Assembly: GCF_000429645.1 (NCBI RefSeq)
Contig: NZ_KE386934.1
Coordinates: 372,001 to 436,000, forward strand
From: Niveispirillum irakense DSM 11586
GTDB lineage: Bacteria > Pseudomonadota > Alphaproteobacteria > Azospirillales > Azospirillaceae
Length of the DNA stretch: 64,000 nt
Direction: 5' to 3'
A program made the translations under genes and the position numbers. Numbering within the stretch: position 1 is the stretch's first letter; every line of letters begins with the position of its first letter. The notes below the pieces were generated by a model. The model was not told where the DNA came from. It did not search any database and saw only the letters and a list, made by a program, of their open reading frames with translations. Of the stretch, positions 21,235 to 59,789 are shown in pieces.

Positions 21235-21284
21235 TTTAACCTTAGAATCGCGATATATTCTTGTTGATCGAAGACGAACATAGG

Positions 21285-21311
21285 AGAAAATTTTCTGGTT
21301 TTCCCAAAACC
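21285..21311. promoter_or_regulatory. Two adjacent inverted repeats before the ParA-SIR2 cassette
   Basis: AGAAAATTTTCT (21285-21296) is a perfect 12-nt palindrome. Immediately after it, GGTTTT (21297-21302) and AAAACC (21306-21311) form a second inverted repeat with a CCC spacer. A TATATT hexamer at 21254-21259 could be a -10 element. The repeats end 21 nt before the ATG and may be operators for an unseen or self-encoded repressor. Function is inferred only. Confidence 0.4.
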
Positions 21312-21332
21312 TCAACCTAAAATGTGAGACCC

Positions 21333-22331: not shown

Positions 22332-23181
22332 AGATCTAATTTCCTCAATAGCAAGAAGAAAAGCTATCTTCTTCTTGGGAGCAGGAACGTCAATGAATTC
22401 TATTAATGCAAAAGGGCAACGCCCGCCATCGTGGCGTGATTTTCTAGAGTCAGGAATTGAACGCTGCCAATCCAACAAATCTGAGATGAGTAAGATTCTT
22501 CGATCTGGAGACTATTTAACTTGTTGTCAAATTATAAAATATAAACTTGCGCACGATTGGGTTCCATTTGTCGAAGAAAAGTTTCTTCAGCCAATGTTTA
22601 AACACAATAAAACACACGAATTAATATTTAAATTAGACTCTCCTATAGTTTTAACTCCAAATTTTGATAAAATATATGACAATTATGCAGTGTCTCAGAC
22701 GAGTAACTTGATAAAAATAAAAAAATATCATGATGATGACTTGGCTAGATCCCTACGTGGAGGAGAAAAACAAAGATTAATATTAAAAATACATGGATGC
22801 ATAGATACGCCTGATAGACTAGTATTTACCAGAGAGGACTATGCAGATATAAGGAATAAATTCGCTAATTTCTATAGAGCAATGGACGCCCTTGTTCTCA
22901 CTCATACCTTCCTTTTTATAGGATGCGGAATGAACGATCCAGATTTAAGTCTTATTCTCGAACAGTACGCACGCTCATTTGGTAGCGCCCCACCCCATTA
23001 CATTACATTTTCAGGAAAAGTAACAGAGGAGTATAAAAACATGATAGAAAAGAATTACAATTTAAGGTTATTAAAATATTCTTCAAATGATGACCACAAA
23101 GAACTTCAAGACTCACTCGAAAGTTTAGTGAAAGCGGTAAACTCTAAACGGGACGATTTATCAACATCTCAGCTATGGTAA
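22315..23181 (+). CDS. SIR2-like (SIR2_2-type) NADase-domain protein, second gene of the cassette
   Basis: The 288-residue protein is a stand-alone SIR2-like domain of the kind used as an NAD-depleting effector in phage defence. The nucleotide-binding loop is GAGTS (22-26). TPNFD (114-118) supplies the predicted catalytic Asn116 and Asp118. His160 lies in KIHGCID, followed by LVFTREDY. FIGCGMNDPD (201-210) is the second NAD-contact motif. All catalytic positions are present. There is no membrane segment or extra domain, so activation must come from its partner or ligand. The GTG start at 22315 has GGAGG 6 nt upstream, inside the ParA gene, which implies translational coupling. Confidence 0.88.
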   Translation: MITWPEDLISSIARRKAIFFLGAGTSMNSINAKGQRPPSWRDFLESGIERCQSNKSEMSKILRSGDYLTCCQIIKYKLAHDWVPFVEEKFLQPMFKHNKTHELIFKLDSPIVLTPNFDKIYDNYAVSQTSNLIKIKKYHDDDLARSLRGGEKQRLILKIHGCIDTPDRLVFTREDYADIRNKFANFYRAMDALVLTHTFLFIGCGMNDPDLSLILEQYARSFGSAPPHYITFSGKVTEEYKNMIEKNYNLRLLKYSSNDDHKELQDSLESLVKAVNSKRDDLSTSQLW

Positions 23182-23253
23182 ATCGTTAATTAAAATACAA
23201 AAATATTTAAATAAATTACTGAAAAACACCTTTAATGAGAGAACGAAACTGCC

Positions 23254-23544
23254 ATGACCGACACCAACCTTGATCCGCTGGGTGACAGCTTCGAGTCTTT
23301 TCTGGAGAGCGAAGGCATCAAGGAAGAGGTCTATGGTACCGCCATCAAGCGCATTATCGCCTTTCAACTGGAAGCGGCACGCGATGCCGCCGATATCTCC
23401 AAAACCGCCATGGCCCAGACCATGGAAACAAGCCGCACCCAGGTTAACCGGGTGCTGGACCCGGAAAATGTCGCCATCTCTCTGGAACTGTTGGATCGGG
23501 CGGCCAAGGCGGTCGGCAAACGGCTCCGGGTGGAATTGATCTGA
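23254..23544 (+). CDS. XRE-type HTH protein, antitoxin-like (HigA/HTH_37 style)
   Basis: This 96-residue protein has an N-terminal helix (LGDSFESFLESEGIKEEVYGTAIKRIIAFQLEAARD) and a C-terminal HTH (DISKTAMAQTMETSRTQVNRVLDPE). It resembles the antitoxins that normally follow a RelE/HigB toxin gene. No toxin gene precedes it; the AT-rich ParA-SIR2 cassette ends about 70 nt upstream. Its composition is that of the host chromosome, so it probably belongs to the resident DNA. The start has GAGAACGAAACTGCC upstream, a weak site. Whether it regulates the cassette is unknown. Confidence 0.75.
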   Translation: MTDTNLDPLGDSFESFLESEGIKEEVYGTAIKRIIAFQLEAARDAADISKTAMAQTMETSRTQVNRVLDPENVAISLELLDRAAKAVGKRLRVELI

Positions 23545-23652
23545 CGCCGCACCCGGCGGATACTGAAGGCAAAAAGCGGCCCGCCATTGACCCCCAGGGC
23601 CGGGATACATTAGGCCAGTGCTATCCCTTTCACGGCAGCGGACACCGCCCCC

Positions 23653-24921
23653 ATGCCCCATGCCCCTTCCTGGTACGCTGATACGGCCCATCCCGCCCCC
23701 AACCGACCGATGCTGGTGGGCGATGTCACCGCCGATGTCTGTATTGTCGGGGCCGGTTATACGGGGCTGGTGACAGCGATTGAGCTGGCGCAGCGCGGCC
23801 TGTCCGTTGTGGTGCTGGAGGCGGAGAAGGTTGGCTGGGGGGCGTCGGGCCGCAATGGCGGGCAGATCGTCACCGGCTTCAACAAATCCATCGCCGAGAT
23901 TGAAGGCTGGATGGGCAAGGGTGATGCCCGCCAGCTCTGGGATCTGTCGGAAGAGGCCAAGACCATGCTGGCCGGGCTGGTGGAACGGCACCAGATCGAG
24001 TGCGACCTGAAATGGGGTTATCTGCTGGCCGCCTTGAAGCCCCGGCACATGACGGCGCTGGCTGAGCATCAGGCGGAACTGGACGGCCTGGCCTATGGCA
24101 AATCCCGCATGGTGGCGCGGGATGAGGTGCGGGCCATGGTGGCAACCGACTCCTATATCGGTGGCCTGTATGATGAAGGGTCGGGCCAGTTACACCCGCT
24201 GAACTATGCGCTGGGGCTGGCGCGGGCGGCGGAAGGGCTGGGCGTGCGCATCCATGAGGGCAGCCGCGTGGTGCGGGTGGAAACGGGCGACAAGCCCTTT
24301 GCCACCACCGCCACCGGCAAGGTTAGCGCCGGCTATCTGGTGCTGGCCGGCAATGCCTATCTGGGCGGCTTGGCCCCGCCCATCCGCAGCCGGGTGATGC
24401 CGGCCGGCACCTATATGATCGCCACCGCCCCGATGGAGCCGGAACGGGCTGCCGCCCTGATCCCATCGGGCATCGCGGTGGCCGATATCAATTTCGCGCT
24501 GAATTACTATCGCCGGTCGCCGGATCACCGGTTCCTGTTCGGCGGCGGGGTCAGCTATTCCGGCTTTGATGCGCCGGGGCTGAAAACCAGCCTGCGCCGC
24601 ACCATGCTGCGCTATTTCCCGCAACTGGCCGATGTGCCGGTGGAGTATCTGTGGGGTGGGCATGTCGCCATCACCATGAACCGGCTGCCGCATCTGGGTC
24701 GGATCAGCCCGACCACATATTTCGCCCAGGGCTATAGCGGCCATGGCGTGGCACTGACGGCCATTGCCGGGCGGGTGATTGCAGAGGCCATCGGCCATCA
24801 GGCCGAACGGTTCGATATTTTCGCCCGCATCCCGCACCGCCCCTTCCCCGGCGGGCAGACCTTCCGCATGCCGGCCCTGGTGCTGGCCATGATGTGGTAC
24901 CGGCTGCGAGACCTGCTGTAA
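23653..24921 (+). CDS. puuB: FAD-dependent amine oxidoreductase, PuuB-like (gamma-glutamylputrescine oxidase)
   Basis: This 422-residue DAO-family flavoenzyme has the FAD-binding GAGYTGLVTAIELAQRG at residues 33-49, WGASGRNGGQIVTGFN, and the C-terminal GGHVAITMNRLPHLG plus YSGHGVALTAIAG. These signatures, including WYADTAH at the N-terminus, are those of gamma-glutamylputrescine oxidase. That enzyme oxidises glutamylated putrescine in the Puu catabolic pathway. A polyamine role is supported by the potFGHI importer at 29.5-33.8 kb, although puuA, puuC and puuD are not in the window. Related glycine or D-amino acid oxidases remain possible. Confidence 0.8.
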   Translation: MPHAPSWYADTAHPAPNRPMLVGDVTADVCIVGAGYTGLVTAIELAQRGLSVVVLEAEKVGWGASGRNGGQIVTGFNKSIAEIEGWMGKGDARQLWDLSEEAKTMLAGLVERHQIECDLKWGYLLAALKPRHMTALAEHQAELDGLAYGKSRMVARDEVRAMVATDSYIGGLYDEGSGQLHPLNYALGLARAAEGLGVRIHEGSRVVRVETGDKPFATTATGKVSAGYLVLAGNAYLGGLAPPIRSRVMPAGTYMIATAPMEPERAAALIPSGIAVADINFALNYYRRSPDHRFLFGGGVSYSGFDAPGLKTSLRRTMLRYFPQLADVPVEYLWGGHVAITMNRLPHLGRISPTTYFAQGYSGHGVALTAIAGRVIAEAIGHQAERFDIFARIPHRPFPGGQTFRMPALVLAMMWYRLRDLL

Positions 24922-24950
24922 GCGGGTCGGGCGCAGGCACCTGGATAAAA

Positions 24951-24982
24951 ACAGGGGCGGCACCCTGCGGCACCGCCCCTGT
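24951..24982 (-). terminator. Bidirectional hairpin terminator between puuB and the FKBP gene
   Basis: ACAGGGGCGG (24951-24960) pairs with CCGCCCCTGT (24973-24982). On the minus strand the stem is followed by TTTTTATCC, so it mainly ends the FKBP transcript. On the plus strand it is about 30 nt after the puuB stop. Confidence 0.82.
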
Positions 24983-25019
24983 TCATTGATTGATCAGGCT
25001 GCCCGTCTGGTTGCCCACC

Positions 25020-25574
25020 TCAGCGGATCATGGAGGGGTTGGCCAGCAGGTTGGTATTGTCCGGCTTGCGGATGCTCAGCAATTCAATGGTGAACAGCAG
25101 GGTGGAACCACCGGGGATGCGCGGCGGCTGCCCCCGCGCGCCATAGCCCAGTTCCGACGGCACAGCCAGTTCCCAGGTCTCCCCCACCTTCATCATGGGG
25201 ATGGCTTCCTGCCACCCACGGATAAGCCCGCCCAGCGGGAAGCTGGCCGGACGGCCGCGATTATAGGAGCTGTCGAACTCCGACCCGTCGATCAGGATGC
25301 CGCGATAATGCACCGTCACCTCATCCGACAGCAGCGGCCGCTGGGCATTACCCACAGCCGGCTTGACGATGCGGTATTGCAGACCGCTGGGCGTGGTGCG
25401 CCAACCGGCCTTCTTGGCATTTTCGATCAGATATTGCTTCTGCGGGTCGATGCGCGGCAGGGCCAATGCGGCATCCCCCTGCCCCGCCGGCTTCTGCTGT
25501 GCCCCCGCCGGCAGGGCGGTGACCATCAGGGTGGCGCCAAGGAAAAGGGCGGCAAACGTGGCGGAACCGGACAT
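25020..25574 (-). CDS. FKBP-type peptidyl-prolyl isomerase, exported
   Basis: This 184-residue product has a signal peptide (TFAALFLGATLMVTALPAGAQQ) and so should act in the periplasm. The FKBP domain begins at about residue 70 and carries SDEVTVHYRGILIDGSEFDSSYNRG, GLIRGWQEAIPMMKVGETWEL, VPSELGYGARG and IPGGSTLLFTIELL, the full set for activity. It folds or isomerises secreted proteins. GGGAG lies 7 nt before the ATG at 25574. A second FKBP gene lies just upstream on the same strand, so this looks like a tandem duplication of the isomerase. Confidence 0.92.
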   Translation of the reverse strand: MSGSATFAALFLGATLMVTALPAGAQQKPAGQGDAALALPRIDPQKQYLIENAKKAGWRTTPSGLQYRIVKPAVGNAQRPLLSDEVTVHYRGILIDGSEFDSSYNRGRPASFPLGGLIRGWQEAIPMMKVGETWELAVPSELGYGARGQPPRIPGGSTLLFTIELLSIRKPDNTNLLANPSMIR

Positions 25575-25694
25575 GCAACACTCCCATGTCAACAAACTGA
25601 AACCGGCTGTGGGGTAACACAGGCGAAAGGGGGGTGCCACCCCCGTGAATAGTCGCAGGGCGAATATAGCCGGTCACCGCGCGTTTGCGTGGCT

Positions 25695-26189
25695 TCACTG
25701 TCCGCTGAGATAGGGTTTGGTGATGCCCAGCAGTTCAAGGGTGAACAGCAACGTGGCGTCGGGCGGTACCTTGCCACTGGCAGAGCCGCGCGCGCCGTAG
25801 CCCAGCGCAGCCGGCACCGCGATTTCCCAGGTATCACCGATGCGCATCATCGGCACCACCTCCCGCCAGCCGGCGATCACGCGGGTCAGTTGCAGCTTGG
25901 CCGGCTTGCCCTTGCGCCCCGTTGTATCGTCAAACACGGTGCCATCGAGCAGGGTGCCACGATAATTCAGGGTCGCATGGTCGATCGGCGCTGGCACCGG
26001 CCCGGTGCCCGGCCCCGCCTTAACCACCCGGTAGCGCACGCCGCCGGGTGTGGATTTCCAGCCCTTCGCATCCAGGCTTGCCAGATATTCCGCCTCCGCC
26101 GGCGGGGCGGCACGGGCCAGCCCCGGCACCAGCGGCACCAGCACCAATGCCAGGGCGGTCCCCAGCATCCGCAACAACCTGCCCATCAT
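25695..26189 (-). CDS. FKBP-type peptidyl-prolyl isomerase, second exported paralogue
   Basis: This 164-residue protein has a signal peptide (LLRMLGTALALVLVPLVPGLARAAPP) and the FKBP signatures NYRGTLLDGTVFDDTTG, RVIAGWREVVPMMRIGDTWEI, VPAALGYGARG and VPPDATLLFTLELL. It is shorter at the N-terminus than its neighbour at 25020 and more basic. The two share the domain order and Gly-Tyr-Gly-Ala-Arg-Gly core, so they are paralogues. The intergenic gap (121 nt) suggests that they can be expressed together or separately. It is preceded by a DUF-type exported protein gene on the same strand. Confidence 0.9.
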   Translation of the reverse strand: MMGRLLRMLGTALALVLVPLVPGLARAAPPAEAEYLASLDAKGWKSTPGGVRYRVVKAGPGTGPVPAPIDHATLNYRGTLLDGTVFDDTTGRKGKPAKLQLTRVIAGWREVVPMMRIGDTWEIAVPAALGYGARGSASGKVPPDATLLFTLELLGITKPYLSGQ

Positions 26190-45730: not shown

Positions 45731-46453
45731 TTATCGACAAATGCCAAAGGGCCCCATATCCAGATGGAAATGGTCCCGATGAAGATCATTATAATCGGGG
45801 CCCAACACAGAGCGAAAAATCTGGCAGCCCCCTTTATGGGCATCGCGCCAGAACAGGGCAGCCGCCGTGGGGCGGGATTGGTCATCCATACGGTCCCAAT
45901 CGCTGATCAGGCTGGATGTCGTGCCATCCGCCAGGGTTACAGCCGCAATATCGATGGCATTTGCGGTGGCGTGCTGGCTGCGCCGCCCCCCTTCTCCGCG
46001 TGTTGTGCGCACAGCACGGCAGGCATAGGTGCCATAATGGCGGACATTCGCGATATCGGCATTGAAATGGCGCCGGGCGGCCGGGATGAGGACATGGCGT
46101 TCATACAGTACCAACCCCGCCAGCAGCGGGCAGGAGGCCGTAACCGTGGCGTTGTACCGTAAATCAGACCGGCGAAGGGTCGCTGCCCCCGTAAGGCCGC
46201 ACCCTTCCGCAGGCCCGGACCGGTCGGGCACCGGGCTGGCAGCCACACCCGCCCCTTCCAGCCAGGCAAAGCAGGCCTCGGGCTGATCCTGCAAGCGACG
46301 CAACTGCCAGCTCGTCAGAAAGCCGGGCGGCTCTGCCGGGTCGGGCAAGGCAAACGGATTCCACCGCGCCGGTATCTCGATCAGATCAGGCCGAAGCCAG
46401 ATCCCCCCCGCCACCAGAGTGACGGCCAGAAGAAGGAATATTTTCCAGCGCAT
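45731..46453 (-). CDS. Extensin-family protein (peptidase-like)
   Basis: This 240-residue protein has an N-terminal membrane anchor or signal peptide (WKIFLLLAVTLVAGGIWLRP). Its C-terminus bears the extensin-like domain that resembles DD-peptidases: SQHATANAIDIAAVTLADG, KGGCQIFRSVLG and DLHRDHFHLDMG supply His/Asp zinc ligands. Six or more Cys suggest periplasmic disulfides. It may trim peptidoglycan; a structural role is equally possible. ATG 46453 was chosen over a TTG two codons earlier. Confidence 0.78.
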   Translation of the reverse strand: MRWKIFLLLAVTLVAGGIWLRPDLIEIPARWNPFALPDPAEPPGFLTSWQLRRLQDQPEACFAWLEGAGVAASPVPDRSGPAEGCGLTGAATLRRSDLRYNATVTASCPLLAGLVLYERHVLIPAARRHFNADIANVRHYGTYACRAVRTTRGEGGRRSQHATANAIDIAAVTLADGTTSSLISDWDRMDDQSRPTAAALFWRDAHKGGCQIFRSVLGPDYNDLHRDHFHLDMGPFGICR

Positions 46454-47035
46454 GTGCAATCCGCGTGATGAAGCAAGGCCAGGTAACCGACTGGATGACA
46501 GCAGCCCACCCTGGCATTAACGGGTTTGCATAAGGAATTGGCTCGTCTCGCTGCGTCTTTTCTGCGACGCACGGAAATCCTGCACCATATGGATATTGAT
46601 CCTGTCCCCCAGCGGGCAGCGATCCTAATTTTGCACAAGTATGTCTATGACGCGGCTCCAGGGGCGGTTAAATGTTTGTCAAGCATTTGAATCGACCACA
46701 TGACAGAACCATGACGGCTTGACTTATAAAATATCCATATTTTTCAATCAGTTAATTTTTGACGCCTATTTTTTAGGCAAATCCGTAAAAGCCGCAGACT
46801 TCTTGGTGTCCCATGCGCAACCCCCATCCTTTTCCTCAGACTTATCCACAGATTCCGTGGAATAGTTCAACCAGCGCTCATGCCTGCCATCACCCACCAA
46901 TCGGCCGAGGCAAAATGCCGATAGCCGCCCGAAATTGAGTCTTTCGTACAGGGAGACAGTTTTGATCATGGGGAATGCGACCTCTCATCCGAAGGGTGAT
47001 TGACCAGGAAGAGCGGATCAGCCACATCACTGGCC
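46454..47035. other. Non-coding AT-rich interval before uvrC
   Basis: The 582-nt interval holds no gene I would support. It contains the AT-rich DnaA-box element at 46747-46858 and a GAATC (GANTC) site in TTGAATCGACC. A stretch of Thr/Ser-coding frames on the minus strand has no ribosome-binding site. Confidence 0.6.
46747..46858. promoter_or_regulatory. AT-rich element with perfect DnaA box, copy A
   Basis: The block has TTTTTGACGCCTATTTTTTAGGC near 46757 (GCCTA/TAGGC inverted repeat at 46764-46778), 61 nt of intervening sequence, and a perfect DnaA box TTATCCACA at 46842-46850. The box is followed at once by GATTC, a GANTC methylation site. A second, similarly spaced copy is at 51980-52077. 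It may be a DnaA-controlled promoter of uvrC or a replication-linked site. Confidence 0.6.
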
Positions 47036-49072
47036 ATGCAGGACCAACCCGAAAAAATTCCCTTTTCCGCCTCTGCCCAAACACCCCCGGCTGATTCCGG
47101 GGATGAGCCGGCCGCCATGGATGATAGCGTGACCTCCTCCGAGCCTACGGGGGATGTGGCGACGGCTGGGGATCTGCACACCGAATCTGCCGAACCCCAG
47201 AAGAGGCGCACCCGCCGTACCGTCGCCGATCTCAACCGCGGGGTGGAGGTGATCAAGGCCTATCTGCGCACCCTGCCCGACCGGCCTGGCGTCTATCGGA
47301 TGCTGAATGATGATGGGGATGCGTTATATGTCGGCAAGGCGCGCAGCCTGAAGCGCCGTGTCACCAACTATACGATGCCGGTCAAGCTGCCGATCCGCTT
47401 GCAGCGCATGATCGCGGAAACGACCCAGATGGAGTTCGTCACCACCCATACCGAGGTGGAGGCGCTGCTTCTGGAGTCGAATCTGATCAAGAAGCTGATG
47501 CCGCGCTATAATGTGCTGCTGCGCGACGACAAGACCTTCCCCCATATCCTGATCAAAGGCGGGCACGATTTCCCGCAATTGACTAAGCATCGCGGCACCC
47601 GATCCGATCCCGGCCATTATTATGGTCCCTTCGCATCGGCGGGCGCCGTCAACCGCGTGCTGACGGCGCTGCAGCGGGCGTTCCAGCTTCGCTCCTGCGC
47701 CGATACGGTATTCAGCAGCCGCACCCGGCCCTGCCTGCAATATCAGATCAAGCGGTGTACGGCCCCCTGTGTGGAACGGGTCAGCGCCATGGAATATGCC
47801 GAGCAGGTAGCCGAGGCGCGTACCTTCCTGGAAGGGCGCAGCCGCGATATCCAGGCCGAACTGGCGCAGGCCATGCAGCAGGCTTCCGAGGCGCTGGAGT
47901 TTGAACGGGCGGCGAAGCTGCGCGACCGTATCCGCGCTTTGACCGCCATCCAGGCGCATCAGGATATCAATGTCGAAGGGATCGAGGATGCCGACGTGAT
48001 CGCCGCCCACCAGGATGGCGGCAGCACCTGCATCCAGGTCTTCTTCTTCCGGGGCGGTCGCAATTATGGCAACCGGGCCTATTTCCCCAGCCATGATAAG
48101 GCCCAGGATGTGGAGGAGGTGCTGGCCGCCTTCATTGCCCAATTCTATGACAACAAGGCCGCCCCCAGCCTCGTCCTGGTCAGCCATGAGTTGGCCGAAC
48201 ATGAATTGCTTCAGGAAGCGCTCAGCGTGCGGGCCGGCCATAAGGTGGAACTGCATGCGCCCAAGCGGGGCGACAAGAAACGCCTGCTGGATCACGCCCT
48301 GACCAATGCCCGCGAGGCCCACGGCCGGCGGCTGGCGGAAAGCGGCAGCCAGGCCAAACTATTGGCCGGGGTGGCTGAAGTCTTCGGGCTTTCAGAACCG
48401 CCGAAGCGGATCGAGATTTACGATAACAGCCACATCCAGAGCGCGCATGCCATCGGCGCCATGGTCGTCGCCGGGCCGGATGGCTTCATCAAGAATGCCT
48501 ATCGCAAGTTCAACATCAAAACCGCCGGTGCCGCCGGTGACGATTACGCCATGATGCGCGAGGTGCTGACCCGGCGCTTCGAACGGGCCTTAAAAGAAGA
48601 CCCTGAACGGACGGGCGAGAACTGGCCCGATCTGGTGTTGATCGATGGTGGCGAGGCGCAACTGGCCGTCGTGGCGGAAGTGTTTGCCGAACTGGGCATT
48701 GATGATGTCTGTCTGGCCGCCATCGCCAAGGGGCCGGACCGTGATGCCGGGCGGGAACGGTTCTTCATGCCCGGTCGGCCCCCGTTCGGCCTCGATCACA
48801 AGAGCCCGGTGCTCTATTATCTGCAAAGACTGCGGGACGAGGCGCATCGTTTCGCCATCGGCACCCACCGGTCACGGCGGGAAAAGGCGATCAGCGCTTC
48901 CCCCCTGGACGAAGTGCAGGGCATCGGGCCTCGCCGCAAGAAAGCGCTGCTGCTGCATTTCGGTTCCGCCAGGGCCGTCTCTCGTGCCGGGCTCAACGAC
49001 CTGGAGGCCGTGGAAGGCATCAGCCGTGCTGTCGCGAAAATCATCTATGATCACTTCCATCCGGAGGGATAG
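47036..49072 (+). CDS. uvrC: Excinuclease ABC subunit C
   Basis: UvrC makes both incisions in nucleotide excision repair. The 678-residue protein has a GIY-YIG nuclease domain ([27 protein letters not shown]), the Cys-rich zone ([12 protein letters not shown]), the UVR/UvrB-binding helix ([15 protein letters not shown]), the RNase H-like endonuclease domain ([30 protein letters not shown]) and C-terminal helix-hairpin-helix ([15 protein letters not shown]). The first 65 residues are an acidic low-complexity extension not needed for catalysis. The ATG at 47036 was chosen over TTG 47000. Confidence 0.94.
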
Positions 49073-49126
49073 GATGCCGCCACTGTTTCCTTCCCCCTGC
49101 CCGCCTGTTCGAGAACCATCCCCCCG

Positions 49127-49702
49127 ATGCTGACCAGCCTGCCCAACATCCTGACCTTGTCGCGCATCGCCATCATTCCCATTGTGGTGGCCTTGTTCTT
49201 CTTCCCCGGCCCCTGGCCGGCCTGGATTGCGGCGGGCCTGTTTGCGGTGGCCTGCATCACCGACTGGTTCGACGGCTATCTGGCCCGCGCCTGGCAGGAA
49301 GAAAGTGCGATCGGCAAATTCCTGGACCCGATTGCCGACAAGCTGCTGGTCGCTGCTGTGCTGATCATGCTGGTGGCCAATCGCCACATTGCCGATCTGG
49401 CCGTGTTGCCGGCGGTGGTGATCCTGCTGCGGGAAGTGATGGTGTCGGGACTGCGGGAGTTTCTGGCCGGGCTGCGTGTCAGTGTTCCGGTCAGCCAGCT
49501 TGCCAAATGGAAGACGGGCATCCAGATGCTGGCCATCGGCTGGCTGATCGTGGGTGAACATGGCCCCGCCACCTGGCCGGTAACCTTCATTGGCGAGGTG
49601 GGGCTGTGGCTTGCGGCGGCCCTGACACTGGCCACGGGCTGGGATTATCTGCGCGCCGGTTTGCGCCACATGCTGGCGCCCGGTGGGGGAAAGACCGAAT
49701 GA
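49127..49702 (+). CDS. pgsA: CDP-diacylglycerol--glycerol-3-phosphate 3-phosphatidyltransferase
   Basis: PgsA makes phosphatidylglycerol phosphate. The 191-residue inner-membrane protein has four or five hydrophobic segments and the CDP-alcohol phosphotransferase motif D-x2-D-G-x2-A-R-x8-G-x3-D, visible in ITDWFDGYLARAWQEESAIGKFLDPIADKLL. The ATG at 49127 starts LTSLPNILTLSRIAII, the family N-terminus. It is 55 nt after uvrC, as in many proteobacteria, and overlaps moaD by 4 nt. Confidence 0.92.
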   Translation: MLTSLPNILTLSRIAIIPIVVALFFFPGPWPAWIAAGLFAVACITDWFDGYLARAWQEESAIGKFLDPIADKLLVAAVLIMLVANRHIADLAVLPAVVILLREVMVSGLREFLAGLRVSVPVSQLAKWKTGIQMLAIGWLIVGEHGPATWPVTFIGEVGLWLAAALTLATGWDYLRAGLRHMLAPGGGKTE

Positions 49703-49953
49703 TCAAGCTTCTTTATTTCGCCTGGCTGCGCAGCAAGATTGGGCAGGCCGAAGAACAGATAGCCCTGCCGGAAGGCGTTGCGGATGTCGGCGGGCTGATC
49801 GTGCATCTCCAGGCCCGGGGCGGCGGCTATGCCGATGCGCTGGCCAATATCGATGTCGTGAAAGTCGCCGTGAACCAGGAATATGCGCCCTTTTCCCACC
49901 CGGTGAAGCCGGGGGACGAAGTGGCGCTGTTCCCACCCGTGACGGGGGGCTGA
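49699..49953 (+). CDS. moaD: Molybdopterin synthase small subunit MoaD
   Basis: MoaD is the sulfur carrier of molybdopterin synthase. The 84-residue protein has a ubiquitin-like fold with the essential C-terminal Gly-Gly (FPPVTGG). Its ATG overlaps the pgsA stop (ATGA), and its stop overlaps the moaE start. MoaD also supports the MOSC enzyme at 18 kb, which needs the molybdenum cofactor. Confidence 0.92.
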   Translation: MIKLLYFAWLRSKIGQAEEQIALPEGVADVGGLIVHLQARGGGYADALANIDVVKVAVNQEYAPFSHPVKPGDEVALFPPVTGG

Positions 49954-50429
49954 TGGCAGTCCGGGTCCAGGAAGCGGATTTCGATCTCGGGGCTGAATTG
50001 CGGGCGCTGGTGGCGGGCAACCATGCCATTGGCGGCCTGTGCAGCTTTGTCGGGCTGGTGCGCGATCTGCACCCCAAGGCCGGCGAAGCGGCTGGAACGG
50101 TCAAGGCCCTGACCCTGCAGCATTATCCCGGCATGACGGAAAAGCAGCTTGCCGCCATCGAGGCAGAAGCCCGCACCCGCTGGCCCCTGGCGGACTGTCT
50201 GATTATCCATCGTCATGGAAAGATGGAGCCGGGGGAGCAGATCGTGCTGGTCGCCTGCGCCAGCGCCCATCGCGAGGCGGCCTTTGAGGCATGCCAGTTC
50301 CTGATGGATTGGCTGAAAACCAAGGCCCCTTTCTGGAAACTGGAAGACACGGAGAATGGTGACCGCTGGGTGGAAAGCCGCACGGCAGACGCCCAGGCCG
50401 CCGCACGCTGGACCGACCAGAAGGCCTAA
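49953..50429 (+). CDS. moaE: Molybdopterin synthase catalytic subunit MoaE
   Basis: MoaE transfers sulfur from MoaD thiocarboxylate to precursor Z. The 158-residue protein shows GGLCSFVGLVRDLH, TLQHYPGMTEKQL, IIHRHGKMEPGEQIVLVACASAHR and the catalytic LKTKAPFWKLE (Lys). It overlaps moaD by one nucleotide, so the two are translated together. The gene is followed 80 nt later by a sensor histidine kinase. Confidence 0.93.
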   Translation: MAVRVQEADFDLGAELRALVAGNHAIGGLCSFVGLVRDLHPKAGEAAGTVKALTLQHYPGMTEKQLAAIEAEARTRWPLADCLIIHRHGKMEPGEQIVLVACASAHREAAFEACQFLMDWLKTKAPFWKLEDTENGDRWVESRTADAQAAARWTDQKA

Positions 50430-50510
50430 GCCGGAGGGCTGACATTGCGGTAAGCGACAAGCAGCCTGCCGACGGGTAATATCGGGGTATGTGAGTTTGG
50501 GTTTTCGACC

Positions 50511-51725
50511 ATGCCTGTTCGGAAAGAGCAACCCGTTATTCTTGTCATTGGCGGCAGCGCACCAGCCTATCCGACCATGGTGCCTGGGGCCCCGCGCTTC
50601 CATTTTCACCCTGCTACGGTTCTGCTGGAACATTGCCGCTCGCTGCGCCCGCATCTGGTGATTCTTGATCTGGCCGGGGTGGATGATCCCCTGCCCCTGC
50701 TGGATATGATCGCCCCCCTGCCGATCCAGCAAATGCCCAGCGCCATCGTAATCGGCGATGCCTTGACGGGGGCTATCCGGCAGCAAGCGCTGAACCGGGG
50801 GGCCGTCGCCGTCATTGAGCGTCCGGCGGACGGGATGGAACTGTCGCTTCTTCTATCAGCGCATGTCCGTCTGCGCAGCCAGGTACGGCATCTGGCCCGT
50901 CGCGGGCAGGAGCTTGACCAGCTTCTGTCCGACAGGAACCAGCGCCTGCAGGACGCCCTGGCTCTGCTGGAGAAAGCCGAACAGAAACTGGCCCGACGGG
51001 CAGAGCCTGACCCTGGCAACAGCCAGTTGGAAATCCTGGCCAATGCCACCCATGAGCTGCGCACCCCTTTGAACGCGATTATCGGTTTCAGTGACCTGCT
51101 GTGCAGTCAGGCCCATGGCGCGCTGGGTGATGCCCGGTATGGTGAATATGCCCAGGATATCCAGGACGCCGCGCACCATCTCCTGGCCCTGGTGGAAGGC
51201 ACCCTGGATCTGGCACGGGCGGAAGCCGGGCATGAAGAACTGGATATCCGCGACATTGATATTGGCAGCACCGTCCTGAACAGCACCCGGCTGGTACGGC
51301 AACTGGCGGAAAATGCCGGCGTTCGTCTGGAAACGCTGCTGCCGGAAACGCCTTTGCATATTCGAACCGACCCGGACAAAATCCGCCAGATCTTGTTGAA
51401 CCTTACATCCAACGCCATCAAATTCACGCCGCCCGGTGGTGTCGTCACCGTTGCGGTGGATAGCAGTGCCGATGGGGGTGCGGTGATCCTGGTGATCCGG
51501 GACACAGGGTTTGGCATGGCCGCCCAGGATATCCCGGTGGCAATGCGCCCCTTTGGCCAGGTGAAACAGGCCGAACGACCGCACCCGAAAGGTACTGGCC
51601 TGGGCCTGCCGCTGACCAACCGCTTTGTAAAGATGCTGGGTGGCGTCTTGGATATTGACAGCCAGCCCGGCAAGGGGACGACCGTGACCGTTCGTCTGCC
51701 CCCCGTTCCGCCCGATCACGATTAA
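50511..51725 (+). CDS. Hybrid-type sensor histidine kinase with pseudo-receiver N-terminus
   Basis: The 404-residue kinase has an N-terminal receiver-like domain (VILVIGGSAPAYP; Asp53 in VILDLAG) in which the conserved Lys is replaced by Arg104 (VIERPADG), so it probably does not signal by phosphorylation. A coiled helix (RRGQELDQLLSDRNQRLQDALALLEKAEQKL) leads to the HisKA box with His181 (ATHELRTPLNAIIGFSDLL) and a complete ATPase (RQILLNLTSNAIKFT, DTGFGM, GTGLGLPL). No transmembrane segment is present. A cognate response regulator is not adjacent. Confidence 0.87.
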   Translation: MPVRKEQPVILVIGGSAPAYPTMVPGAPRFHFHPATVLLEHCRSLRPHLVILDLAGVDDPLPLLDMIAPLPIQQMPSAIVIGDALTGAIRQQALNRGAVAVIERPADGMELSLLLSAHVRLRSQVRHLARRGQELDQLLSDRNQRLQDALALLEKAEQKLARRAEPDPGNSQLEILANATHELRTPLNAIIGFSDLLCSQAHGALGDARYGEYAQDIQDAAHHLLALVEGTLDLARAEAGHEELDIRDIDIGSTVLNSTRLVRQLAENAGVRLETLLPETPLHIRTDPDKIRQILLNLTSNAIKFTPPGGVVTVAVDSSADGGAVILVIRDTGFGMAAQDIPVAMRPFGQVKQAERPHPKGTGLGLPLTNRFVKMLGGVLDIDSQPGKGTTVTVRLPPVPPDHD

Positions 51726-52377
51726 CTATTTCCGGTTGGTGGCTGCGTCAAAGCACGCCGTTTGTCCACTGTCTCTTATGCAGATCGCCAAAGGCGTCTG
51801 ACATGCGTTTGCGGCATGTCTTTGGGACAACTGATTCCTTCAACGCATGGATCGTCCCTCTGTGCAACTTAGGGCAGAGCCAAGACGGCAAATTTATAAA
51901 TACGACTTAAGTGACTGATTATTAAGAATTTATTGTATTTGTTCGATATGCGTTCTAGCGACCCTAAAAATAAGCGCACCAGTTTTGACTATTTTTTAGG
52001 CAATCTTGATAGAGACCAAGGTAACTGCGCCCGTACAGACTTAGCCAATCTTTAATCACAGACTTATCCACAGATTCTGGGGATCAAACCTACCGCTTGG
52101 GGGCTTGGTTGCAGGGCAAACTGCCCATATCCCTGCCTGCCGTTCAGTCGATGACGACAAGAGAGCAGGGCCGGGGGCCGCCACAATCTTTTGTGGCATC
52201 GCTATCAGATTATCCTGACAAGCTGACCCGTTTGAGGCGACCGACACGCCACTTGCGAATCATCCCCATCCTGGAAGACGCTGGCGCCGCCTTGTGCGCC
52301 AGCGCACTTCCCCCCGGCGGGTCCAGTGGGTAGGCTCCCCACCATTCGGAGCCACCCGACAGTAAGGATCACCCGTC
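51726..52377. other. Non-coding interval with second DnaA-box element
   Basis: The 652-nt interval has no gene I would support. Its centre (51860-52080) is AT-rich and carries copy B of the DnaA-box element. The distal 300 nt before the GST gene are G+C-rich with no clear frame; AAGGA lies before the GST start. Confidence 0.6.
51980..52077. promoter_or_regulatory. AT-rich element with perfect DnaA box, copy B
   Basis: AGTTTTGACTATTTTTTAGGCAA (51981-52003) corresponds to copy A near 46757. After 60 nt a perfect TTATCCACA (52064-52072) is followed by GATTC, again a GANTC site. The two copies therefore share order, spacing (60 versus 61 nt) and the DnaA-box/GANTC junction. It lacks the left half of the GCCTA/TAGGC palindrome found in copy A. 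Confidence 0.6.
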
Positions 52378-53070
52378 ATGACCATCGAATTACATGTCTG
52401 GCCCACGCCCAATGGCTATAAAATCTCCATCGCGCTGGAGGAGATGGGCCTTCCCTACAATGTCCATCCGGTGAATATCGGGGCAGGCGACCAGTTCAAG
52501 CCTGATTTCCTGAAGATCGCGCCCAACAACCGGATGCCGGCGATTGTCGATCCCGATGGGCCGGGCACCAAGCCGATCAGCCTGTTCGAGTCTGGTGCCA
52601 TTCTGATTTATCTGGCGGAGAAGACAAAGCAGTTCCGCCCGGCTGACGAGGCGGAATGGTTCAGCCATATTCAGTGGTTGATGTGGCAGATGGGCGGCCT
52701 GGGACCCATGTTCGGGCAGGCCGGTCACTTCATGCTCTATGCGCCGGAAAAGGTGCCCTACGGTATTGACCGCTATCGTAATGAGGCCAAGCGCCTGTTG
52801 AAGGTCGCAGATACACGCTTGGCAGAGACGGAATATCTGGGCAGCGACGCCTATGGCATCGCCGACATGGCCAGCTTCCCGTGGATTCGCAATGCGCCGA
52901 AATATGAGATCGATCTGGCGGATTATCCGCATGTGAAGCGCTGGCATGATGCCATTGACGCGCGCCCGGCCGTCAAACGCGGTCTTGCCCTGTTGTCGGA
53001 TAAGGTTCGCCCCGCAGGCCAGCCGATGAGTGAGGCGGAAAAGCAAGTATTGTTCGGACGTAAAGGCTGA
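52378..53070 (+). CDS. Glutathione S-transferase, YfcG/Nu-like
   Basis: This 230-residue protein has the thioredoxin-like N-domain (LHVWPTPNGYKISIALEEMGLPYNVHPVNI, NNRMPAIVDPDGP, LFESGAILIYLAEK) and the helical C-domain (QWLMWQMGGLGPMFGQAGHF, YGIADMASFPW) of GSTs. The NGYKISIALEE and QAGHF segments are those of the YfcG-type GSTs, which reduce disulfides rather than conjugate drugs. The ATG at 52378 follows AAGGATCACCCGTC. A strong terminator follows. Confidence 0.9.
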   Translation: MTIELHVWPTPNGYKISIALEEMGLPYNVHPVNIGAGDQFKPDFLKIAPNNRMPAIVDPDGPGTKPISLFESGAILIYLAEKTKQFRPADEAEWFSHIQWLMWQMGGLGPMFGQAGHFMLYAPEKVPYGIDRYRNEAKRLLKVADTRLAETEYLGSDAYGIADMASFPWIRNAPKYEIDLADYPHVKRWHDAIDARPAVKRGLALLSDKVRPAGQPMSEAEKQVLFGRKG

Positions 53071-55015: not shown

Positions 55016-58000
55016 TCACGCCGCGTAACCACCCCCGGTGACGCGGCGGGCCTGGCCGATGGAAACCAGCAGATCCAGCATATCCTGCACCGCCTTGCCG
55101 CGCGCGCCTTTGAACTGGCGGGCCACGGCATCCGCCGGCAAGGCGGTATTGGCCGCCGACAGGGTGCGCAACAGGGCCTGGACCTGATCGGCCGGCAGCT
55201 TGGGCCAGGAGGGGCGCTTGGCGGCCACGGCGGTTTCGCCCAGATCGGCGACAAGCTGGGTCTGTACAGCCGCACCGGCGGGGTTCTGGAATTCCGGGCG
55301 CAGCCAGCGGATCAGGCCCTGCGCCTCCTCCGCCGCGCGCTGTTTGTTCAGCGCCACCAGCCGCAGCAGGATGTCCCGGTCTGCTAAGTCCACCGGCCAG
55401 CCATAGGCATCGGCCACCGCCGCATCCAGATCGCGGTGCAGGTCCAGCAGCACGCCGACATGGCCGGCATCATAGATGTCCTTTTCCGCCGGGGTGAAGG
55501 CGGCCCCGGCCCGGCGTTTTTCCAGCACATTATACAGGTCGGTCAGGGTGAACCGCCCGTCATTGTCGGCCAGCACCCGCTTGCGCAACCCATCCAGCTC
55601 CTCCGCCAGGGCGCCGATCCGGGCCTCCTGGGCGGGCGTGAGGATGGGGAAGGGGAATGGATCGAAGCAGCGCGATTTCTGATAACGCGGGTCGTTGCCG
55701 AAACCTAACCAACCACCCGCGGCTAAAGCCCAACAAACATGAACACGACTGCTGAGAATACCCAGATGGCTGGCCCGGTCGGAAGCGATAGCGACCAGCA
55801 TGTTATCCGGCAGGATGCTGATATCCAGAAACTGGAAAATGCGGTGCTTGGCCGTTTCAACGGTGGCGATATAGCGGGGGAGATTGACGAGGGCTTTGCG
55901 TAAATCTCCCCGCGGCTTGCCGAAAAGCCACCATTGCGCCGCATATTGGCGACCATCCGGCGTGTCAGCTTTGGTTTGCCGCTCGTCATGAACACGATCA
56001 TACAACCATTGATAAACCGCCGGATAGCGCTGGCGCACTTCACCTGCGGTCAAGCCGAACAGATCAATCACCATCAGGCCTCGGCCACGCCCCGTCAGGT
56101 CGCGGCCATTGCGGTAATGGCGAATATGGTTCTCCAGACCGTGCACTTTACCCAGCCCCAAGCCCGCTGCTTGGGCCGGGGTGACAAGGAAGCCGGAACC
56201 ATGCAGCTTCACCCCAGGACTGGAAATCCCTTCATTCGCCTGCAACGGCACAGCTCCCACCACATCCGCCCCAATCGTCAGATCGGGCAGGATCACCCCT
56301 TGTTCGATGGCAAAATCCACGGCGATGGCCCCATCGTTGGGGTTGGCCTCCCCTTCCCGCGCCACCTGTTTCAACAGCCCCTCCCCCGGCCCGGCCACGC
56401 CCACGGTCATGGCCACGCGCACGGCGGCGGACCCATGGGCGTCGGCCCAGGGATGGTCGGGGATGGCAAAGCACAGATGCAGCGGCTTTTTCGCCTCCAG
56501 ATGCCGCTTGATCACCCGGCGGCTGAAGGTCTGGGTGATGGAATTGGTGGTGATGAAGCCGAAGCGCCGCACCTTGCCATCGCGCACCAGATCGGCGGCG
56601 CGGTCCCACCAATACATCACGAAATCCGCCCCGCCGGGCATGTGCGGATAGGCGGCCCACAGCGCCTCTGCATAGCCATCACCCAGTTCCTGGCGCAAAT
56701 CCTTGCCGCCGATGAAGGGCGGGTTGCCGACGATGAAATCGGCCTTGGGCCAGGGGGCGGGCTTGGGATCGGTGAAACGGTAAAGCTCCCGCACCGCTGT
56801 TTCATCCGGCACTTGCCGCCCGGTCAGCGGGTCGGTGCGCATCGACACGCCATTCCAGCGGGCCACCGGCTTGCCATCCGCCCCCAGCACCAGTTCCTGT
56901 TTCTTCCAGGCCAGGACGGCATCCATCTCCCGCACGGTTTCAATGGGTTTCAGGATGGGGTCGGACAGGCTTTCCGGCCCGCGCAGGCGCAGATGCCCTT
57001 GCAAATGGCCCAACCACAGCACCAGTTCAGCAATGGGCACGGCCCCGCCATTCTTCTCCAGCCCGATAAATTGCTGCGGCCCCACGGTCAGGCCCTGCAT
57101 ATCCAGCACGGCCTGGGCACCGGCCCCCAGTTCCTCCAGCGCCAGCAGCACCTCCCCTTCCAGTTCCTTCATCAGTTCCAGGCTGACATAGAGGAAATTG
57201 CCGGTGCCACAGGCGGGGTCCAGCACCTTCACCTGGCAAAGATCGCGGTGGAAGGCGCGGATCAGTTCCACCGCGCCCTTGATATCGCCCGCCGCGCGCC
57301 GGCCTTCCGCCAGGGCCAGGGTGGCGCGGAATTCGGCCTGCAGCGGCTCAATCACCGTGGGGATGACCAGCCGTTCCACATAGGCGCGCGGGGTGAAATG
57401 GGCACCCAACTGCCCGCGTTCGCGCTCACCCAAGGCATTTTCCAGCAGGGTGCCGAAAATCGCCGGCTCCACATGGCGCCAGTCGCGCTGGCAGGCCGTC
57501 ACCAGTTCCGCCAACTCGTCTGCCGTCAGCGGCAGGGCCTGGGCATTCTTGAACAGGCCGCCGTTGAAATAACGCACGGGCGCACCGATCATCGGATCGA
57601 AATCACTGCCCTTGTCCATGGAACGCCAGAACGGCGTCAGGTACCGTGGCAGGAATTGCGGGGCACTTTCCGCCTGTTTCAACAGTTTCAGGAAGGCATC
57701 CGTCGGCAGCAGCCCCACATCCTCGGCGAAGGCGGTAAACAGGCAGCGCATCAGGAACAGCGCCACTTCCTTACGCTCATGCCGCTTTTCCAGCGACCGG
57801 GCCATGCGGGCCAGCCGATAGGCGATATCCTTCGTCACCTCCGCCCGCTTGGCCGCCGGGTCCAGCGACAAAGGATCGGTCCAGATGGCGCGCAGCCGTT
57901 CCCGGATCGCCGGGTCGGCCAGATCGGGGATGGCGATGCGGTGGGAACGGCTGTCGGGGAAGGGTTTGTAGCGTTTGCCCAGGCCGGTGAAATCGGCATA

Positions 58001-58459
58001 AATTTCAATCACATGGCCGACATCGACGATCACCAGGAAGGGCGGCCATTCCGGCAGATATTTGGCGTAATTTTCCGCCTGCTGCCGGGCCTGCTTCATC
58101 ATCCGATCCCAGGATGCCGAGGATGCAGGCTGTTTTGTCGGCAAGGCACCGCCAAACAGGTCACCCGCGGCAGATGCAACGGCATCCCCCCGCATACGCT
58201 TGTTGGATTGCTTGGCCTCCAACACGAAATGTTTGCGCTTATAGCAATCAATAAAATTGTACCGTCCGTCCTCGCCCTCCAAATCCATGGCGCGGACACG
58301 CTTTTCAAAAACATATTCGTTGCGTTCATCCTCGGCATGGCTGGCCTCGGGCACGCTTACGCCAATCAGTTCACAAAGTTCATTAATGAATTTCTGATAA
58401 TTGGCGCGTTCCGAACCGCCACGACCATTCCAATATTCAATGAATGCTGCGGTATCCAT
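55016..58459 (-). CDS. MmeI-like (type IIL/IIG) single-protein restriction-modification enzyme
   Basis: The 1147-residue protein combines nuclease and adenine methyltransferase. The nuclease motif D-x9-E-x-K is intact at Asp71, Glu81 and Lys83 (FIDCYKRKHFVLEAK), the spacing of MmeI. The methyltransferase has motif I LDPACGTGNFLYVS (414-422) and catalytic NPPF (579-582). A spacer helical region (AHFTPRAYVERLV) and C-terminal target-recognition and tail domains follow. Family members cut about 20 nt from their site and need no separate methylase or specificity gene. The ATG at 58459 was chosen. Base composition matches the host, so it is not recently foreign. Confidence 0.87.
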   Translation of the reverse strand: MDTAAFIEYWNGRGGSERANYQKFINELCELIGVSVPEASHAEDERNEYVFEKRVRAMDLEGEDGRYNFIDCYKRKHFVLEAKQSNKRMRGDAVASAAGDLFGGALPTKQPASSASWDRMMKQARQQAENYAKYLPEWPPFLVIVDVGHVIEIYADFTGLGKRYKPFPDSRSHRIAIPDLADPAIRERLRAIWTDPLSLDPAAKRAEVTKDIAYRLARMARSLEKRHERKEVALFLMRCLFTAFAEDVGLLPTDAFLKLLKQAESAPQFLPRYLTPFWRSMDKGSDFDPMIGAPVRYFNGGLFKNAQALPLTADELAELVTACQRDWRHVEPAIFGTLLENALGERERGQLGAHFTPRAYVERLVIPTVIEPLQAEFRATLALAEGRRAAGDIKGAVELIRAFHRDLCQVKVLDPACGTGNFLYVSLELMKELEGEVLLALEELGAGAQAVLDMQGLTVGPQQFIGLEKNGGAVPIAELVLWLGHLQGHLRLRGPESLSDPILKPIETVREMDAVLAWKKQELVLGADGKPVARWNGVSMRTDPLTGRQVPDETAVRELYRFTDPKPAPWPKADFIVGNPPFIGGKDLRQELGDGYAEALWAAYPHMPGGADFVMYWWDRAADLVRDGKVRRFGFITTNSITQTFSRRVIKRHLEAKKPLHLCFAIPDHPWADAHGSAAVRVAMTVGVAGPGEGLLKQVAREGEANPNDGAIAVDFAIEQGVILPDLTIGADVVGAVPLQANEGISSPGVKLHGSGFLVTPAQAAGLGLGKVHGLENHIRHYRNGRDLTGRGRGLMVIDLFGLTAGEVRQRYPAVYQWLYDRVHDERQTKADTPDGRQYAAQWWLFGKPRGDLRKALVNLPRYIATVETAKHRIFQFLDISILPDNMLVAIASDRASHLGILSSRVHVCWALAAGGWLGFGNDPRYQKSRCFDPFPFPILTPAQEARIGALAEELDGLRKRVLADNDGRFTLTDLYNVLEKRRAGAAFTPAEKDIYDAGHVGVLLDLHRDLDAAVADAYGWPVDLADRDILLRLVALNKQRAAEEAQGLIRWLRPEFQNPAGAAVQTQLVADLGETAVAAKRPSWPKLPADQVQALLRTLSAANTALPADAVARQFKGARGKAVQDMLDLLVSIGQARRVTGGGYAA

Positions 58460-58526
58460 CACTGATCCAAAAGTATTATACCCTGCGCAAAGGTTAATCG
58501 TGACGGGGTGCCTTCGGCAAGAAATC

Positions 58527-59789
58527 TCACGTTCCCAGCAACCAATCCCGCAGCGGTTGCCAGACCTTTTCCTGTGCGCTGCCGCTGACCACCATGCCGA
58601 TATGGCCCAAAGGCGGGTGCCATTGGGTGGCGTTTGGCAGGCGGGTTGCCAGGGCATTGGCCGAGGCCGGGGGCACGATCCGGTCGCGGGCGGGGACGAT
58701 GACCAGCGATGGCTTGGTCCAGCCGGCCGGGTCCACCGGCTGGCCGTCAATGCACCATTCCCCCTTGCCGGGTGTGTTCTCCCCATACCAGCCGGCAAGG
58801 CATTCCCGGGCGATGGCGGCCGGCAGGGTCACCCCGTCATTCAGCCAGTCTTCCAGCGCCACAAAATCATCCGCCGCGTCCGTCGCCGGATCCATCTGGG
58901 CGAAATGGCTGAACTTTTTCAGGGCCAGCAGCGGGTCCAGCGTTGCAAACAGCATCTGCACCCCATCCACCGGCAATTCACCCAGCAGATGCAAGCTTGG
59001 CTCGAACGGGTGCAGCAGCAGCGATGTCCGCTTGGCCGCCGCCGCATCATCGGCATGGAAATCCCAGGGCGTGGCCATGGCAACAAAGGCGGACACCTGA
59101 TCCGGCTGGCGCAAGGCCGCCGCCAGGGCCAGAAGGCCGCCCATGCAATAGCCCACCATGGAAACTGGGCCCCCCACATGGGCGCACAAGGCATCCAGCG
59201 CCCGCGCCAGCCTTCCGGCCACGATGTCGGTCAGGGTGAAGCCGCGTTCCGCCGGGCCCGGCTGCCCCCATTCCAGCAGAAAAGGCCGAAGCCCCTGGCC
59301 TGCCAGCCAGCGCAGCAGGCTTTTGCGGAAGGACAGGTCCAGGATATAGCCGCGATTGACGAGGGAGGGCACGAACAGGACAGGGCGGCCCTGCCCGCCG
59401 AAATCCAGCAGCCGCGCCGTCCCCTCCCGCCACAGGGTTGGTGCATCCTCGATATCGCGCTGATAGGGATGGTTGCGATAGCGTTCCAGCCCGGTGAAAA
59501 ACCGGTCGATGCGCCGCCGCATCTCCCGGTCCACGGCCCCTGACAGGGCGCCGGCGGGATCAGGCTTTTGCTGGTCGGGGCCCGCGTCCGCCCCCTGGCT
59601 TAGGGCTGCCAGATCGGCGCGGAGCCCGTCCACCAGCGGGCGCAGGCTGGGGTGCCAATGCGGCCAGTTCCCGCTCAAGAGCGGCAATCCGGCGGGCGAG
59701 GACATCAGGATCCCCAGCCCCATCCCCAGATGAAGGCCCAGCGGGCGCGGGCCCAGACGCAGCGGCGCTGTCAGGTTCGGATCGGCCAT
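58527..59789 (-). CDS. phaC: PhaC-like polyhydroxyalkanoate synthase
   Basis: This 420-residue alpha/beta hydrolase-fold protein has the PHA-synthase lipase box GYCMGG with Cys215, and the partner Asp369 (PARDRIVPP) and His396 (GHIGMVV), a complete triad. The blocks VLFVPSLVNRGYILDLSFRKSLLRWL and FLLEWGQPG fit PhaC. It polymerises hydroxyacyl-CoA at granules. Its ATG (59789) lies inside the upstream gene, and about 230 nt are read in two frames. phaR lies 490 nt upstream in the opposite direction, so this is a PHA locus. Confidence 0.87.
   Translation of the reverse strand: MADPNLTAPLRLGPRPLGLHLGMGLGILMSSPAGLPLLSGNWPHWHPSLRPLVDGLRADLAALSQGADAGPDQQKPDPAGALSGAVDREMRRRIDRFFTGLERYRNHPYQRDIEDAPTLWREGTARLLDFGGQGRPVLFVPSLVNRGYILDLSFRKSLLRWLAGQGLRPFLLEWGQPGPAERGFTLTDIVAGRLARALDALCAHVGGPVSMVGYCMGGLLALAAALRQPDQVSAFVAMATPWDFHADDAAAAKRTSLLLHPFEPSLHLLGELPVDGVQMLFATLDPLLALKKFSHFAQMDPATDAADDFVALEDWLNDGVTLPAAIARECLAGWYGENTPGKGEWCIDGQPVDPAGWTKPSLVIVPARDRIVPPASANALATRLPNATQWHPPLGHIGMVVSGSAQEKVWQPLRDWLLGT

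Follow-up and report, generated by a model that had tools for sequence, protein, structure and literature searches.

Candidate DnaA-reactivating elements on either side of the uvrC to histidine kinase segment of Niveispirillum irakense, with counterparts across proteobacteria

What is the duplicated AT-rich element that flanks the segment from uvrC to a histidine kinase gene in Niveispirillum irakense DSM 11586? Two such blocks, one ahead of uvrC (copy 1) and one past the kinase gene (copy 2), had been marked by a first-pass annotation in a 64,000-nucleotide stretch of contig NZ_KE386934.1 (positions 372,001 to 436,000; hereafter the window), which offered DnaA-controlled promoters, titration sites or other replication-associated sites as explanations and could not put a name to an element built in this way. 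For the form of the core a name exists, DARS, and from the sequence evidence presented here we consider it somewhat probable that both blocks are DARS-type, DnaA-reactivating elements, a function that we infer from their structure and relatives. In Escherichia coli, ADP-DnaA oligomers on the DARS core release ADP, and IHF and Fis assist at DARS2, as described in passages of two papers (PMC4245941, PMC5742627).

The two blocks were found where they had been placed, and both are intergenic and non-coding, with an AT content of 60% (46700-46870) and 62% (51880-52090) compared with 39% for the window. The distance from GGCAA to the DnaA box TTATCCACA is 61 nt in copy 1 and 60 nt in copy 2, and GATTC directly follows the box in both, as annotated; the common right end of the copies, CAGACTTATCCACAGATTC, is longer than first described. 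The reported succession of TTTTGAC and TATTTTTT applies to copy 2, where the two are adjacent, but in copy 1 they are separated by 3 nt (TTTTGACGCCTATTTTTT). Allowing ≤ 1 mismatch, TTATCCACA has nine matches in the window, and the two exact ones, against an expected 0.21, are those of copies 1 and 2. The annotation had judged chance very unlikely and had proposed a genome-wide search for the long pattern. This search (TTTTTTAGGCAA-N50..70-TTATCCACAGATTC; 5,453,999 bases in 19 contigs) returned two exact matches, both in the window, while a reversed control pattern returned none in the same genome; with a first-order Markov expectation of ~4e-11 in 64 kb at a spacing of 55-65, the judgement stands. 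One additional place beyond the pair matches the 17-mer GACTTATCCACAGATTC with ≤ 2 mismatches.

In both copies the core reads box III, 3 nt, box II (TTATCCACA), 5 nt and an inverted box I. According to part of PMC5742627, the DARS core has three boxes, spaced equally at the two E. coli sites, and box I is opposite to boxes II and III. We took the E. coli regions from the MG1655 record and chose the DARS cores by location and box spacing: the DARS1 core, before uvrB, is TTATCCACT-ATTCC-TGTGGATAA-CCA-TGTGTATTA, and the DARS2 core, near mutH, is TTATTCACC-TTTTC-TGTGGATAG-AGT-TGTGAAGAA. A DARS2 deletion primer given in a passage of PMC4585315 matches DNA just beside the chosen DARS2 core. Both sites share with the window copies the box order, the orientation, the 5-nt and 3-nt gaps and the inverted box I, so that the general features of a DARS core (three boxes with box I opposite, 5-nt/3-nt spacing, intergenic location) are all present in the window. 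DARS1 is also alike in lying upstream of a UvrABC gene, but that gene is uvrB there and uvrC here; moreover, a palindrome is conserved here and copy 1 has an IHF-like site, whereas no IHF match (≤ 1 mismatch) and no Fis consensus were found near DARS1. DARS2 has two IHF-like sites with 1 mismatch each (-99 to -86 and -83 to -70, counted from box II = 0), comparable to the site at -100 to -87 in copy 1, but its outer Fis sites (consensus at -137 to -122) are absent here, and a Fis-type palindrome (-78) lies between the IHF site and the core instead. A DARS2-type IHF site on the box III side is present in copy 1 (1 mismatch, -100) and absent from copy 2. Because the DARS2 Fis arrangement is not found, we do not assign the window copies to DARS2. 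A ColE1 plasmid DARS, compared by description only, likewise has three DnaA boxes in ~70 bp, of which two correctly oriented ones are essential according to a passage of PMC5835720, but it belongs to a plasmid origin.

For the anatomy of the element, named genomes were scanned with one side of the palindrome, box II and one further base, boxes I and III being unused. The scan gave at least 119 places, 80 of which were read, with uvrC in the locus of 62; dropping 12 as ≥ 80% identical to another left 68 non-redundant elements, among which a few chance-like matches were kept (e.g., L205, which has neither box I nor box III). With box II at 0, the IHF consensus lies at about -100, the palindrome at about -78, a tandem weaker box at -12 and an inverted weak box at +14. 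Box I (≤ 3 mismatches) occurs at +14 in 60 of the 68 (next best offset, 3), box III (≤ 3 mismatches) at -12 in 63 (next best offset, 5), and the GCC arm of the palindrome, which was outside the search pattern, in 58. An IHF match (≤ 1 mismatch) lies at -101 to -95 in 36 of the 68, compared with a mean of 2.5 and a maximum of 15 in other 7-nt windows; a smaller second IHF-like peak ~40 nt further out (8 of 68 at exactly -137) is probably the source of that maximum. The palindrome, with the consensus GCCYA-W5-TRGGC, is among the most conserved parts of the element. It is 15 bp long and ~62 nt ahead of box II in each window copy, perfect in copy 1 and imperfect in copy 2, and sits at -67 in one hsp20-type copy. 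All parts, namely the IHF-like site, the palindrome and the three boxes, are present in copy 1. The GANTC junction, which the annotation had read as a CcrM-type site, did not hold up: the gap sequence between boxes II and I is not conserved and contains GANTC in only 7 of the 68 elements, and we reject a CcrM-controlled DnaA site.

The strong conservation of the palindrome might also suggest the operator of another regulator, a repeat sequence or a non-coding RNA in which the DnaA box occurs by chance. We regard this as very improbable, as the DnaA boxes are kept at fixed spacing across proteobacteria and no Rfam match was obtained up to E = 1 in the 7 kb from 46000 to 53000, which also led us to reject an RNA element. 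A palindrome regulon was likewise rejected: in 1.24 Mb sampled from one relative (G003), chosen to include element loci, the palindrome has three matches, two of them at elements. A lone palindrome, GCCTATTTAATAGGC, at L068:16909 (G003:C1) has no DnaA box at element distance. In the two genomes searched for a Fis-sized protein (PF02954, HTH_8; G000 and G076), we found none, the HTH_8 frames being long ones with shortest lengths of 212 and 217 aa, and canonical Fis was rejected as the palindrome binder in these genomes. The binder would therefore be a protein other than Fis.

The annotation had named absence of the pair from all relatives as part of what would undo it; we found the element conserved far beyond the genus. 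The exact long pattern occurs in 2 of 11 genus genomes (the source genome and G004), and the 17-mer GACTTATCCACAGATTC in 9 of the 11 and in none of 71 other family genomes. Its 14 places are upstream of uvrC (3), after the kinase/chemoreceptor genes (4), in the xerC/fsa region (3) and upstream of hsp20 (4). The region upstream of uvrC in 10 genus genomes contains a perfect TTATCCACA in every case, in similar surroundings, even where the 17-mer has changed. A model built from 10 uvrC-type and 7 kinase- or xerC-type genus copies (R1) matched all 82 family genomes at E ≤ 0.01, 71 of which are from other genera, with 1 to 7 matches each, and 30 loci fetched from this search contain uvrC (27), hsp20 (2) or, at a contig edge, the phasin side (1). 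The pair at 5-kb distance is also present in another genus (G064, 958170 and 963302). A second model, R2, comprises 36 sites, 15 of the source family including the window copies and 21 from other named loci (4 titled Proteobacteria or Pseudomonadota only); none is enterobacterial. Sites of the hsp20 type were excluded from both models, and R2 nevertheless scores one of them at 29.3 bits. At E ≤ 0.001, R2 matched 193 of 289 evenly drawn alphaproteobacterial genomes and 208 of 299 genomes of a phylum sample (42 belong to the class; the 166 that do not mostly have weaker E-values), samples which may include genomes that supplied training sequences. The locus contains uvrC in 28 of 30 cases fetched from the class search and in 50 of the 56 read in all once the phylum search is included; of the six that lack it, two stem from the class search and four from genomes outside the class. 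Named sites outside the Alphaproteobacteria adjoin gyrA (Neisseriaceae), priA (Chitinimonas, Acidithiobacillus), xseA (Cupriavidus) and hemE (a Comamonadaceae genome), where one example of each neighbour was checked with Pfam and the others were named from translations.

These neighbours, and the frequency of uvrC in the family search and in the class and phylum searches, are what would be expected of a DnaA-dependent operator through which DnaA, with IHF, regulates DNA-metabolism genes, uvrC among them, and no nucleotide exchange is involved. Part of PMC6015884 describes repression of E. coli uvrB by DnaA at uvrBp3, a promoter overlapping DARS1. On the other hand, copies lie between convergent predicted genes in G003, G005, G007 (by maoC) and G009 (by xerC), as do copies next to a MarR gene on smaller contigs of G014, G019, G015 and G047, whose box II has one mismatch (TTACCCACA); gene orientation in the relatives comes from a simple codon-bias script and MarR was named from the translation. 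The DnaA-controlled promoter of the annotation may thus apply to the uvrC copy, but promoter control is not the whole story because several relatives' copies lie between convergent predicted genes. We consider an operator without nucleotide exchange an unlikely explanation, though one to be taken seriously; an operator role and DARS function are compatible and not mutually exclusive.

R2 was also applied to 318 kb out of the 4.64 Mb of E. coli, in eight stretches, of which four were selected for DARS1, DARS2, oriC and datA and the other four served as background; oriC was located from the feature of the record and datA from its published position beside glyVXY and queG. Five matches passed the default filters at E ≤ 10: DARS1 scored highest (27.7 bits), followed by DARS2 (18.8), the oriC end (17.4), the datA region (15.4) and a second place near DARS2 (14.3), and the four 50-kb background stretches gave none. 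The R2 scores of the window copies are not independent because the copies are in the model; the E. coli scores are independent. The match in the datA region, together with the high-affinity box and the IHF-like site, would suit a site that inactivates DnaA as datA does or simply titrates it, as would the nine matches in one genome (G397) of family f156. This seems improbable to us, since the essential boxes of datA all point in one direction, as stated in a passage of PMC5742627, whereas 60 of the 68 elements have an inverted box I at DARS spacing; datA shares with the element the DnaA boxes and an IHF site, but the site lies between the essential boxes in datA, and here the IHF-like site is outside the core. 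In small genomes of family f156, several R2 matches, up to the nine of G397 and above the two DARS of E. coli, could represent a titration or a multi-copy DARS system.

AT-rich DNA, an IHF-like site and DnaA boxes are also found at replication origins, and the element might be a chromosomal origin, possibly a bipartite one. We give this practically no credence. The relative G003 has its sampled GC-skew minimum at ~2.59 Mb, together with hemE and a distinct cluster of DnaA boxes, and dnaA at 2.35 Mb; its uvrC and kinase copies, at ~0.49 Mb, are 1.3 Mb from the skew minimum and hemE. Additional copies, moreover, occupy differing loci between species. An origin is thus not supported in G003, and the hemE oriC of the genus, which also has DnaA boxes in AT-rich DNA, lies elsewhere in the genome. 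One hsp20 site of G003 is 78 kb from hemE, and the hemE region of the source genome scores 13.6 bits with R2. Other perfect TTATCCACA boxes of G003 outside the elements and oriC are at C1:2301155 (L100) and at C1:1446070 and 1448036 (L095). A stretch of the same genome, G003:C1:2720001-2740000 (L083), has 39.6% GC over 20 kb, compared with 58-66% in other sampled stretches, and is perhaps an acquired island. Four contigs of 1.75-2.05 Mb without a hemE gene carry two sites each, and we infer that they are secondary chromosomes. A blastn search of 72,556 plasmids with one Azospirillum element gave no match, and the secondary-replicon copies therefore rest on contigs of the relatives' genomes.

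Several observations weigh against a DARS-type function. At -100, copy 2 lacks an IHF-like site (its single match, with 1 mismatch, is at -144), and most of the 80 copies read have weak boxes III and I with 2-3 mismatches. The Fis arrangement of DARS2 is missing, as is a Fis-sized protein in the two genomes tested. Because oriC and datA score with R2 as well, part of the E. coli signal reflects generic DnaA boxes, and with filters off the two DARS stretches (18 kb) give several more matches of ≤ 7 bits. With strict filters, 96 of the 289 alphaproteobacterial and 91 of the 299 phylum genomes have no R2 match. The position between oriC and the terminus, conserved for DARS1 and DARS2, varies here: nine uvrC copies are spread over 0.39-0.98 of a replichore, each contig being taken as a whole chromosome. 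The box arrangement alone is insufficient for a DARS; according to a passage of PMC5835720, pairs of boxes in a similar arrangement are frequent in E. coli, numbering 52, and yielded two chromosomal DARS. The frequent link to uvrC could mean that the main role is transcriptional. Finally, the support is sequence-based. The broader proposal of the annotation, a DnaA-linked, replication-associated element, is nevertheless well supported by the DARS-geometry core and its conservation beyond the genus, apart from the GANTC junction.

If the copies are DARS-type elements, then by analogy with E. coli ADP-DnaA would assemble on the core, IHF bending and the palindrome-binding protein would shape the complex, ADP would be released, and the freed DnaA would take up ATP, resulting in a higher initiation potential. 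Since the class-wide copy sits just upstream of uvrC, DnaA bound there may in addition tune uvrC, much as it represses uvrB at DARS1.

The features of the two copies and the genes around them are collected in Table 1. Between the copies lie uvrC, pgsA, moaD-like and moaE-like genes and the histidine kinase gene, and copy 2 is followed by the glutathione S-transferase-like gene and a chemoreceptor gene; moaD and moaE were named from translations and the others assigned by Pfam. Elsewhere in the window, a 1260-aa MmeI-like restriction-methylation protein (MmeI_N, MmeI_hel, MmeI_Mtase, MmeI_TRD) is encoded at 55016-58798 (-), and GC falls to 50-56% at ~20000-26000, perhaps in mobile DNA.

Table 1. 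Positions in the window of the parts of both element copies and of nearby genes.
Feature	Position	Strand	Remark
Copy 1, whole element as R2 match	46734..46867	+	82.1 bits; copy among the 36 building sequences of R2
Copy 1, IHF-like site TTTCAATCAGTTA	46742..46754	+	WATCAANNNNTTR with 1 mismatch; -100 from box II
Copy 1, palindrome GCCTATTTTTTAGGC	46764..46778	.	perfect; fits Fis-type pattern GNNYANNNNNTRNNC
Copy 1, degenerate DnaA box III (TTTTCCTCA)	46830..46838	+	
Copy 1, DnaA box II (TTATCCACA)	46842..46850	+	perfect
Copy 1, 5-nt gap GATTC between boxes II and I	46851..46855	.	the annotated GANTC
Copy 1, inverted DnaA box I	46856..46864	-	reads TATTCCACG on minus strand
uvrC	47036..49072	+	Pfam UvrC_RNaseH_dom, GIY-YIG, UVR; start 171 nt past copy 1
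pgsA-like, CDP-alcohol phosphatidyltransferase	49127..49702	+	Pfam
Histidine kinase	50511..51725	+	Pfam HisKA, HATPase_c
Copy 2, element as R2 match	51972..52085	+	55.9 bits; copy among the building sequences of R2
Copy 2, imperfect palindrome GACTATTTTTTAGGC	51987..52001	.	
Copy 2, DnaA box III (TTAATCACA)	52052..52060	+	
Copy 2, DnaA box II (TTATCCACA)	52064..52072	+	
Copy 2, 5-nt gap GATTC	52073..52077	.	
Copy 2, inverted DnaA box I	52078..52086	-	reads TGATCCCCA on minus strand
Glutathione S-transferase-like gene, past copy 2	52378..53070	+	Pfam

Searches of openly licensed literature on alphaproteobacterial DARS, on DnaA boxes at uvrC and on the letters of the palindrome gave no report of the element among the entries listed. 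Part of PMC4245941 describes conservation of the DARS2 core as specific to gamma-proteobacterial relatives of E. coli. Part of the finding may already be known, because a review states, in a passage without species names, that DARS1- and DARS2-like sequences are conserved in many proteobacterial species (PMC10380432). We propose only tentatively, with rather less confidence than we place in the DARS-type function itself, that the copies belong to an unrecognised DARS family, which would lie upstream of uvrC in most Alphaproteobacteria and by gyrA, priA, xseA or hemE in other classes, carry a GCC-Y-A/T-rich-R-GGC palindrome with a non-Fis binder, and have spread to Azospirillum-like secondary chromosomes. 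The precise location of the element in roughly two thirds of the genomes sampled makes the question of how Alphaproteobacteria regenerate ATP-DnaA directly testable. The finding links replication control to nucleotide-excision repair, as E. coli DARS1 does with uvrB, and an architectural protein would be expected at the palindrome. The secondary-replicon copies would bear on how multi-replicon genomes keep in step and, if the proposal is true, chromid copy number could be coupled to the supply of DnaA-ATP through the copies that each large replicon carries.

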